From positions 1 through 64,000 of the forward strand of contig CAKKRE010000016.1 of assembly GCA_919902505.1 (NCBI GenBank): DNA of 64,000 nt. The letters run 5' to 3'. The position numbers and the translations under genes are program-made. This DNA is from Nitrospiraceae bacterium. Lineage in GTDB: Bacteria > Nitrospirota > Nitrospiria > Nitrospirales > Nitrospiraceae. The stretch's first letter is position 1; the number at the start of each line of letters is the position of its first letter. Below the pieces are notes generated by a model, which was given only the letters and a program-made list of their open reading frames with translations, did no database searches and was not told where the DNA came from. This document shows, one piece after another, positions 7,156-43,609 of this stretch.

Positions 7156-7161
7156 GGATCC

Positions 7162-7358
7162 CTAGCTCGGATTATTCATGACGGTTTGTCGCGAAATCGC
7201 GGAGTCGCGAAGCGAGACGGGCGCGTGGAGCCGTGAGGAAGGAAGGCATCCGTGAACAGGATGTCGACCGACCGAGCGGCGAGCCCGCCCGCCGACAGGC
7301 TGGTCGCAGCTGCGAATCCGCGATTGCAGCAGAAGCGCTCATGAATAGTCCGGGCTAG
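7162..7358. repeat. CTAG-bounded intergenic repeat, copy 3 (subfamily A)
   Basis: 197 bp. The left end is CTAGCTCGGATTATTCATGA and the right end TCATGAATAGTCCGGGCTAG. The interior is collinear with copy 2 but has a short extra tract near the left end (AATCGCGGAGTCGCG). Its right-hand CTA (7355-7357) is the TAG stop codon of the next minus-strand gene. Confidence 0.87.
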
Positions 7359-40743: not shown

Positions 40744-40893
40744 CGACCGTACTGCCTTTGCCGCCTATCCAAGCCTGGGACGAATGGCAAGCGACAAATT
40801 GCGACAGCCTATCCTGCTACAGGCCGATGCCGCCGTCGTAGCGGCTGGTGAATCGGGATAGGGGGTAGCGGTTCGTCCGCTACTCCCCTCCCA

Positions 40894-40928
40894 CACCACC
40901 GGACGTGCGGGTCCGCATCCGGCGGTTC
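40894..40928 (-). ncRNA. Group II intron domain V
   Basis: The 35 nt on the minus strand begin GAACCGCCGGATGCGG and close with CGTCCGGTGGTG. Arms ACCGCCGGA and TCCGGTGGT pair (one G-U), and TGCGG pairs with CCGCA at the tip. This is the catalytic core helix of a group II intron. It lies 12 nt beyond the maturase stop, as expected. Confidence 0.75.
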
Positions 40929-40940
40929 GGAAAGTTGAGG

Positions 40941-42411
40941 TTATGGTGCAGCAAGCCTCGGTACTCCTAATCGGTCGAAGTAGCTGTTGGGCAGGGCGAT
41001 GCTGAGCGCTCTGTGTGTGGACGTCCTCCACCAGCGTTTGGCGTAGGCCGCGGCGCCTCTTGCTACGAGCTCGGGAACACCCCGGGCACGCAGCGCGCGG
41101 CACACCGTTGTTCCACGTTTCCACTGTTTGAGTTGGACCATTCGCAGTCGGTGGCGAACCCACGTGTCGATGTCTCGGAACACGCTCGGTGTTTCGGCCA
41201 GGCGGTAGTACTCTCTCCACCCGACGAGATAGCCGCGTAGCTCTTGCGCCATCGTTGTATGGCTCCGCCCTCCGTTCCGGCTGGTCATGTGCCGGACGCG
41301 TTCCTTCATCGCCTCAAGGGCTTGGGGTGCCACGCGCCGTCTGACCGTCTCTCCCTGGTTCCAGAAACTGTAGCCCAGGAATTTCCGGCCTTCTGGTCGC
41401 GCCACCGCACTCTTCGCCTCGTTGATTCGCAGCCGGAGCCTCGCATAGAGACGCTTGAGCGTCTCCATCACGTCCGCGCCCGCCCGCTTCGATCCGACAT
41501 AGACGTTCCGATCATCTGCGTAACGGACGAAGGCGATTCCGCGTTTCTCCAGCTCCTTGTCCACTTCGTCGAGGAGCACGTTGGCCATTAGCGGTGACAG
41601 GCCCCCCCTGAGGCGTCCCCTCGTGCCGCTCCATCACGACCCCGTTCGTCATGATGCCCGCTTCGAGATCGCGACGGATAAGCCCCAGCATCCGCTTGTC
41701 CCCGATGCGCTTCTCCAGCCTTCCCATGAGCACATCGTGGCACACGCGGTCGAAGAATTTTTCGAGATCCACGTCCACCACGACCCGTTTCCCTTCCTGC
41801 ACGTACCGCTGCGCCTCACAGACGGCGTCATGCGCATTGCGTCCAGGTCTGAACCCGTGACTGTGCTCCGAGAAGGTGGGGTCGAACATCGGTTGCAGCA
41901 CCTGTAGGATGGCTTGCTGGATGAGTCGGTCGAGCACGCAGGGAATTCCGAGCTCGCGCACTCCACCCCCACGCTTGGGGATCTCCTGCCTTCGCACTGG
42001 CTTCGGCTGGTACGTGCCAGCGAGCAGCGGCGCTCGTATCGCCGCGCCATGTTCCACCACGTATGTCGGCAGCTCATCCACGGTCATCCCATCGACCCCG
42101 GGACCGCCCTTGTTCTGCTTCACTCGCTTCAACGCCGCCTTGACGTTGCCGCCCGCGACCACCTGCGCCATCAGGCGGTCGATTCCTGAGCGCGCGTTTC
42201 CGTTCGCCGCCATCGGTGTTTCGCCCCTCCGTTGCAGAGGTCGGGCTTCACCCTTGCCCTCCAGCGGGAGTTCCAGTTGCCTAGACTTCTGGCGCCTAAC
42301 ACGTCCGAGACTCACGGTCGTTGCACTCTTCTTTCCGTTTGGCCCTTTGCGGCGTGCCGCCCTGCCGGTGCGCTCGCCGCTCGTACGGCCTCTGCTGACT
42401 TCTCGCGCCAC
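40941..42411 (-). pseudogene. ltrA: Group II intron reverse transcriptase/maturase, frameshifted
   Basis: Two frames make one protein. The N-terminal part (42411 to about 41609) carries RT motifs: KQNKGGPGVDGMTVDELP, RRQEIPKRGGGVRELGIP, VLDRLIQQAILQVLQP, HSHGFRPGRNAHDAV and VVVDVDLEKFFDRV (catalytic Asp), up to RHEGTPQGG. The C-terminal part (to 40941) resumes MANVLLDEVDKELEKRG, then FVRYADDRNVYV with the YADD active site, and the maturase X domain KFLGYSFW and LRGYLVGWREYYR. The break is at a run of seven C on the plus strand (41602-41608); the Pro of the usual QGGPLSPL motif is lost, so a 2 nt deletion fits better than one extra base. No endonuclease domain is seen. As read, the enzyme would be inactive. 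Confidence 0.85.
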
Positions 42412-42742
42412 CCTCTTCGGCGCGTCGCCCGTTCAGACGTAAGGCGAGACCTCCCCAGGTAAGGGTCATGAATTCCCCCGCACAAGCGCCGCATCTACAC
42501 CGCCTCCCTTTGGTCGCGAGAGCTTCGCGGTCACACGCCCGCTCGCCCTGGGAGGTCGTCGCCTCGTATGCGGTTGCTGTTCGTCGCCTCGCGGTTTCCT
42601 TCCCGCTTCTTTCAGCGCCAGCCTCACGGCTGGACGGCTCACGCCGCTTCTTCGCCTTGCGGTTCTGTCGGGCTCGTTGCGACCAACTCGCCCAGAGGAC
42701 TTTCACCTCCTATTCATGCCCATACTGGGCACACATGAAACT

Positions 42743-43269
42743 CCCCGCAGCAAGCTGCGGGGTATCACAGAACTAACACATGCGGAGCTGCCGGAGAGCT
42801 TCGCGAGGGTGCCCTTGCCGCTGAATGTACCGTTCGATGGTCTGCCAGTTTGCCCGCTCCCCTACCGTGGCCACATCGTACCCATCGGTCCAACACTCCT
42901 CGCCCCACAGTACCCGCTTCACCGCGGGCTTGCGGCGAAAGATCTCCCGCGCCGTGAGGCTTTTGAACACCTGCACAATCCGGCCCTGAGCTATTTTCGG
43001 ATGTGCACCGCAGAGCAGATGGATGTGATTCTGGTCCGTCCCCATCGCTTCCATCTCGATCGGAAACCGTTCCGCAATCTCGGCCGCTGTCTCCTGGATG
43101 ATCGTCGTCACCGCCTCGTCCAGCAGCGCCTTCCGGTATTTCACGGGAAACACCATGTGGTAGTGGATTTGCCACGCACAGTGCGCTCCCTTTCTGACGG
43201 CATCGTCCCTCTGGTCCGCCATACTCCAGAGGGTACCAGAAAAGATTGTCCCCGTAGCAAGCTACGGGG
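42743..43269 (-). mobile_element. IS200-like element bounded by two related hairpins
   Basis: A single transposase gene of IS200/IS605 type is bracketed by hairpins with the same orientation and near-identical sequence: CCCCGCAGCAAGCTGCGGGG at 42743-42762 and CCCCGTAGCAAGCTACGGGG at 43250-43269. Both are followed on the plus strand by ATCACA and related bases. Similar subterminal hairpins at both ends are recognised by TnpA in this family. The exact cleavage positions cannot be fixed; the outer limits are probably within 25 nt of the hairpins. Confidence 0.75.
42773..43222 (-). CDS. tnpA: IS200/IS605-family transposase TnpA
   Basis: 149 aa, the normal size of a Y1 HUH transposase. CAWQIHYHMVFPVKYRKALL is the N-terminal signature, MGTDQNHIHLLCGAHP contains the HUH metal-binding pair (His-Ile-His), and the catalytic Tyr is most likely that of WQTIERYIQRQGHP near residue 130. 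It acts on single-stranded DNA and needs the subterminal hairpins found on both sides (42743-42762, 43250-43269). No TnpB/Fanzor-like partner is present. The frame is intact, so the element may still be active. Confidence 0.92.
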   Translation of the reverse strand: MADQRDDAVRKGAHCAWQIHYHMVFPVKYRKALLDEAVTTIIQETAAEIAERFPIEMEAMGTDQNHIHLLCGAHPKIAQGRIVQVFKSLTAREIFRRKPAVKRVLWGEECWTDGYDVATVGERANWQTIERYIQRQGHPREALRQLRMC

Positions 43270-43413
43270 AATCACAAGCTGAACAGCTCATGCCGATCAC
43301 CCAGAATATACTGCGAGAATCTCGCCGCGCAGGTATTCCCTCTCGGCCATGTTCATGAGCTTACATGCCAGAAAAGAATCCCGATAATAATTGGGAAAGC
43401 AAGGCCCTCGCGC

Positions 43414-43609
43414 CTAGCCCGGATTATTCATGACGGTTCGTCACGAAATCGCTGAGGCGCGTCGCGAGCCCGGCGCGTGGAGTCCGGAGGCCCCGACGCG
43501 TACTCGTGCAGTACGTGGAGAGTCCGATGGGCGAGCCCGCCGGCCAAAGGCTCGTCGCAGCAGCGGATCGGCGGTTGCAGTAGAAGCGCTCATGAATAAT
43601 GTGGGCTAG
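43414..43609. repeat. CTAG-bounded intergenic repeat, copy 6 (subfamily A)
   Basis: 196 bp. Ends are CTAGCCCGGATTATTCATGA and TCATGAATAATGTGGGCTAG. The interior is collinear with copies 2 and 3 and contains a GTAC-bearing centre. Its right-hand CTA (43606-43608) is the TAG stop codon of the lipoprotein gene. It lies about 145 bp from the IS200-like element, with no gene in the gap 43270-43413. Confidence 0.87.

Follow-up and report, generated by a model that had tools for sequence, protein, structure and literature searches.

A predicted group IIC intron at the right end of an IS200-like element

The intron and its neighbouring element

The window, i.e. the whole 64,000-nt stretch of DNA analysed here, contains on its minus strand an IS200-like element with an intact transposase gene and, directly behind the right end of that element, a group II intron with its reverse transcriptase reading frame (Table 1). 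The initial annotation had placed the intron start at 42734, 8 nt behind the hairpin at 42743-42762, a position borne out by the Rfam matches and, independently, by the second copy of the element in the same genome, the alignment with which breaks off exactly at 42735. The T-rich tail described between hairpin and intron was an overstatement, as the spacer AGTTTCAT holds no terminator-like T tract.

Table 1. Features of the intron and of the adjoining IS200-like element in the window
Feature	Position	Strand	Basis or remarks
Group IIC intron, 1,883 nt, GTGTG...CCCGAT	42734..40852	minus	Rfam domains, junction of the intron-free IS copy, and terminal motifs common to related introns
Intron start, GTGTGCCC...	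42734	minus	
Intron end, ...CCCGAT, followed by TCACCAGCC	40852	minus	
Intron domain I core, RF02001 (D1D4-3)	42633-42465	minus	Rfam, 105.6 bits
Intron domains V and VI, RF00029 (D5/D6)	40927-40852	minus	Rfam, 43.4 bits; match ends exactly at 40852
EBS1 in 8-nt loop, GCGG-GC(GTGTGA)-CCGC	42531..42536	minus	Rfam alignment and register agreement across related introns
5' exon TTTCAT with IBS1	42735..42740	minus	Contains putative transposase cleavage motif TTCA (42739-42736)
First 3' exon base, T (IBS3)	40851	minus	Joined with 42735, restores TTCATT
Reverse transcriptase ORF, 5' part (299 aa)	41512..42411	minus	TIGR04416, PF00078; best solved match GsI-IIC RT
Reverse transcriptase, 3' part in another frame, YADD and maturase (GIIM) domain	40941..41588	minus	TIGR04416, PF08388
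C7/G7 run, site of the reverse transcriptase frame break	41602..41608	minus	Sequence and ORF table
IS200-like element, ~544 bp, putative ends GCTTGTGATT...GGGGAGTTTCA	42736..43279	minus	Comparison of ends in relatives, and empty sites
tnpA, Y1 (HUH) transposase, 149 aa, intact	43222-42773	minus	NF033573, PF01797; closest solved entry 2xm3
Left-end subterminal hairpin	43250-43269	minus	
Right-end subterminal hairpin, CCCCGCAGCTTGCTGCGGGG	42762-42743	minus	Putative intron landing structure
Spacer between right-end hairpin and intron, AGTTTCAT	42742-42735	minus	

The RNA domains, the reverse transcriptase and the exon-binding loop, as read from the sequence, place the intron in class IIC. Both domain I and the D5/D6 region are present, the reverse transcriptase is of class C by its closest solved match and lacks an endonuclease domain, and a hairpin lies directly upstream of IBS1; RF02001 is taken as a IIC model from the EBS1 loop and the match of the intron-encoded protein to IIC, rather than from a curated label. 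In a profile search the protein showed RVT_1 and GIIM domains only, and its closest relative of solved structure was GsI-IIC RT (257 bits), ahead of 5hhj (172) and 7uim (169), with LtrA at 99. By type it is thus an ordinary group IIC intron, which as such would have been self-splicing and mobile. The present copy is probably immobile now, since its reverse transcriptase frame is broken.

In the adjoining element, the HIH motif and the tyrosine of TnpA are aligned as in Y1 HUH transposases of the IS200/IS605 type, and the closest solved transposase, 2xm3, is one which we take to be ISDra2 TnpA. The hairpin in front of the intron had been described as the twin of one at the other end of tnpA, and a counterpart in the same orientation does lie at 43250-43269; perfect hairpins with stems of at least 8 bp number only seven in the 64-kb window, two of which are this pair flanking tnpA. 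The right-end hairpin of 20 nt has a perfect 8-bp stem (-10.2 kcal/mol as DNA, z = -4.5). The two hairpins are preceded by TGATT and TGATA as putative guide sequences and terminal inverted repeats are absent, as in IS200-type elements. When the ends were aligned across relatives, the left flank ended in TTCA in 11/16 cases, followed by ACTTGTGATT and the hairpin, and the right end read TGATA-hairpin-AGCTTCA, followed by TT in 23/27 intron-free cases. Insertion downstream of a fixed TTCA motif, without target duplication relative to the empty loci described below, is likewise of the IS200 type. An alternative right end of 9 nt, closing on TTCATT, was considered; the end at TTCA is favoured rather than proven, because TT already follows the target in empty sites, where it would represent a preferred flank. 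Beside the left flank of the element, positions 43413-43605 hold a repeat of at least about 112 bp that has TTATTCATGA / TCATGAATAA and GGGCTAG motifs at its limits. It recurs near 7161-7238, is present in about 20 copies in this genome and in many across the genus, and may be a MITE or a structured repeat.

Ownership of the hairpin and recurrence of filled ends

The view of the initial annotation that this hairpin is not an ordinary terminator was tested in its own genome and in relatives. The genome carries two copies of the element, the second of which (G000:C7:28436-28882; its protein is 98% identical and has one stop) shares this right end, with the intron absent (GCGGGGCGCTTCATTGTTCC); a search allowing up to 2 mismatches found no further copies of the hairpin in this genome. 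Across the family the hairpin recurs at the right end of both the element and copies lacking tnpA, and the right-end pattern (hairpin followed by the TTCA end) gave approximately 280 matches in 68/175 family genomes, an approximate sum in which some sites are counted on both strands, compared with 1 for a reversed-pattern control. In two congeneric genomes the locus exists without the element, the intron or the hairpin, reading CATGAGCTGTTCGATTTCATCAGCC (G030) and CATGCGCTGTTCGATTCCGCCAGCC (G021), and its counterpart in the window is CATGAGCTGTTCA-(IS)-T-(intron)-TCACCAGCC. The hairpin is therefore the right end of the element, given that it recurs at that end in relatives and is missing from the empty locus, and a host terminator was rejected on the same two grounds; the character of the spacer also argues against a terminator. 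One family genome (G104) shows the right-end pattern about 80 times, with many of the matches at contig edges, which suggests that the IS or its MITE underwent a recent burst; the filled-end pattern occurs at none of these.

A right end joined to an intron start was found at three places in the 175 family genomes, namely the window, G107:C2 and G072:C150, so that the search proposed in the initial annotation, for further IS copies either carrying or lacking an intron, yielded one unoccupied copy in the genome of the window and, in other species, two more filled ends. The G107 case is a full IS, and the G072 case is a tnpA-less MITE (PHGD01000062.1, Nitrospira sp. LK70), which was also the one match returned by a pattern scan of genome contigs for filled ends. 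There were no filled ends outside the family in a phylum sample of 395 genomes. Between them, the introns of G107 and G072 are 97% identical, but their similarity to that of the window is only ~60-64%, which implies at least two intron lineages, one of them present in two different elements. The spacing from hairpin to intron is 7-8 nt at 3/3 filled ends, and relative to the putative cut between TTCA and TT the intron lies exactly at that point in G072 and G107 and 1 nt past it in the window. As in the window, joining the exons in G072 (AGCTTCA/TTATC) restores TTCATT. Occupancy is low, with 3 of ~280 end-like sites filled.

The known intron copies at IS ends appear, from their sequences, to be degenerate: the window copy has its frame break, in G072 the reverse transcriptase ORF is without the YADD stretch, and the 3' half of the intron at the G107:C2 filled end has been lost to an IS3-type insertion. 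Introns at G107:C2 and G107:C4 (L067, L122) are interrupted by IS3-type transposase genes, at ~425 nt in one copy and at ~60 nt in another.

A census with RF02001 across the 175 family genomes recovered 14 IIC introns, 13 of them with a readable 5' junction. Three of the 13 lie at IS/MITE right ends, four at attC-like sites (5' exon ending ACGT, the attC character being judged by eye), two at T-tailed terminators, one at another hairpin (G107:C4) and three, two of them in G064 and one in G108, at structures that are weak or unclear; an extra copy detected by DNA similarity (G107:C1) sits behind a terminator. The genome of the window has a second IIC-type intron (G000:C28:1-217, L081), truncated by the contig end, whose 5' exon ends in CAACGT like those of the attC-type introns in G068, G112, G120 and G165. 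In G064:C15 (L070), two related introns stand in tandem 1.7 kb apart with identical 5' flanks, as if a segment had been duplicated.

This spread of sites bears on the explanation that any hairpin will do for a IIC intron to land behind, the IS end being one of many with nothing special about it. The copies behind terminators and unrelated hairpins are what such indiscriminate landing would give, as is the weak exon pairing of the window intron described below, and yet 3/13 readable junctions fall at a single type of element with only 2 to 4 end-like sites per filled genome, and the IS end provides not only a hairpin but also the spacing and, for one lineage, 5 bp of IBS1 pairing. Chance landing in this sense is considered rather unlikely, with the qualification that it overlaps the preferred explanation of retrohoming into the IS end, because both involve the same mechanism and the one point of difference is whether the IS is favoured as a target.

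Exon pairing and the order of events

The EBS1 loop was taken from the Rfam alignment, as RNAfold of the whole of domain I failed to give the conserved EBS1 hairpin. One register pairs best in nearly all introns compared (AAAU/GUUU, CAAU/GUUG, ACGU/ACGU, UGGAG/CUUCA), and the first 3' exon base is T in most of them. The suggestion that the exon-binding sites be matched against the flanking sequence had a divided outcome. In the second lineage (G107, G072) the loop sequence UGGAG pairs over 5 bp with CUUCA of the IS end, but in the window GUGUGA against UUUCAU gives G.U, U-A, G-C, a mismatch, G.U and A-U, i.e. only 3 contiguous bp (one G.U) and a mismatch at -4, compared with pairing of at least 4 bp in the attC-type relatives. 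A shifted register, GUGA/UCAU (4 bp), suits the window better, but the relatives use another. The pairing in the window is therefore compatible with recognition of the IS end and carries little weight, because three such pairs would arise by chance about 1 time in 8.

The explanation that best fits these observations is that retrohoming brought a group IIC intron into the right end of the IS200-like element, which is very probably what occurred. The weak pairing in the window, the low occupancy of end-like sites and the missing 3' half of the intron at G107:C2 count against it. Comparison of sequences establishes the intron boundaries, the IIC features, the assignment of the hairpin to the IS, the intron-free copies, the empty sites and the recurrence elsewhere. 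In the proposed sequence of events, the IS would have inserted first and the intron second, by reverse splicing on the folded single-stranded hairpin. What the intron RNP would recognise is a DNA hairpin with a short IBS1/IBS3 next to it; the hairpin in this case is the one used by the Y1 transposase itself, and IBS1 is presumably the TTCA that marks the element's end for the transposase, extended by the first base of the flank. Each new copy of the IS or MITE would then represent one more intron target, and the idea that the IS hairpin serves as a landing site and its copies as portable targets gains support from three cases in two lineages. The intron itself would not travel with the IS: given its position at or outside the putative TTCA cleavage point, excision of the IS would leave the intron behind, with the TTCA of the left flank then replacing the lost IBS1.

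The same IS insertion was seen both with and without the intron in no genome examined, so that the order of events rests on inference, and the junctions in the window are by themselves indecisive, TTCA being common to the target and the end of the IS. An older intron could have stood behind a sequence ending TTCAT, with an IS200-like element, which targets TTCA, later jumping in directly in front of it. This reversed order draws on the identity of the IS target motif (11/16 left flanks) with the IS end motif and on the left flank in the window, which indeed ends in TTCA. It would, however, have left the intron without a hairpin of its own, since the left flanks of 3/3 filled elements contain no perfect stem longer than 4 bp, which points to the hairpin having come with the IS; the left flank of the G072 element, TTGA, would not pair with EBS1 UGGAG at -2, and an IS set beside GTGTG would depart from the preference for TT seen at 23/27 intron-free ends. 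The absence of a hairpin from the left flanks, the unpaired position at -2 in G072 and the TT preference argue for the IS having arrived first, and the reversed order appears distinctly improbable.

The coincidence of the homing site with the putative cleavage point of the transposase suggests that intron and transposase act on one and the same transiently folded strand. A more general proposal, held tentatively and as somewhat less than an even prospect, is that a single folded stretch of single-stranded DNA is recognised, at nearly one and the same base, both at Y1-transposon ends and by IIC introns, such that the spread of an IS200-like element and its MITEs would seed a genome with preferred homing sites exactly at the transposase cleavage point.

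Relation to known systems

Class IIC introns follow a known target rule of a hairpin and a short IBS1/IBS3 (PMC3898094, PMC7923331, PMC4424553), and low site occupancy has been recorded for other studied IIC introns, at 2/17 and 3/73 (PMC3522654). The mechanism proposed here is already known, and it is the type of target that is apparently undescribed; a literature search covering few subscription papers found no IIC intron at IS200/IS605 ends. The hairpin targets of IIC introns are usually terminators and attC sites, and a recurrent mobile hairpin ties the spread of the intron to that of the IS or MITE. The ~280 end-like sites in 68 genomes provide a natural set of near-identical targets on which the rules of spacing, stem and IBS1 could be tested.

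The transposon side resembles ISDra2-type IS200/IS605 elements in the affinity of its TnpA to 2xm3, in its subterminal hairpins and in the use of one short motif at both the left target and the right end, but differs in that motif (TTCA, as opposed to TTGAT in ISDra2-type elements) and in the absence of tnpB.

The exact adjacency of intron and IS recalls IStrons, in which a group I intron is combined with IS605 (PMC4227781), and raises the alternative that the two form one chimeric element moving together. The IStron intron, however, lies inside the element ends and is moved by the transposase, whereas the present intron is group II and lies at or beyond the right-end motif; in addition, intron-free IS ends far outnumber filled ones and IIC introns also occur without an IS. 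Membership of the IStrons was rejected, and a jointly moving chimera is scarcely credible.

The nearest precedent is found in Pseudomonas putida KT2440, where group II introns lie in REP elements in 2 of 9 copies (table, PMC1525189), likewise at short dispersed palindromes, in a comparison drawn irrespective of intron class and from a table giving counts only, with no exact IS-end position. Terminator-inserting class C introns (PMC4424553, PMC3898094) share with the window intron the ribozyme type, the class of intron-encoded protein, a hairpin 6-9 nt upstream and, putatively, a short IBS1 with T as IBS3, but in the window the hairpin forms the end of a transposon, lacks a T tract and has no part to play as a terminator. 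With the IIC-attC introns of integrons (PMC7923331) it has in common a target that is a mobile-element hairpin and itself a substrate for recombination, and it differs from them in its EBS1 sequence and in that the target is not attC but the end of an IS200 or MITE cut by a Y1 transposase.
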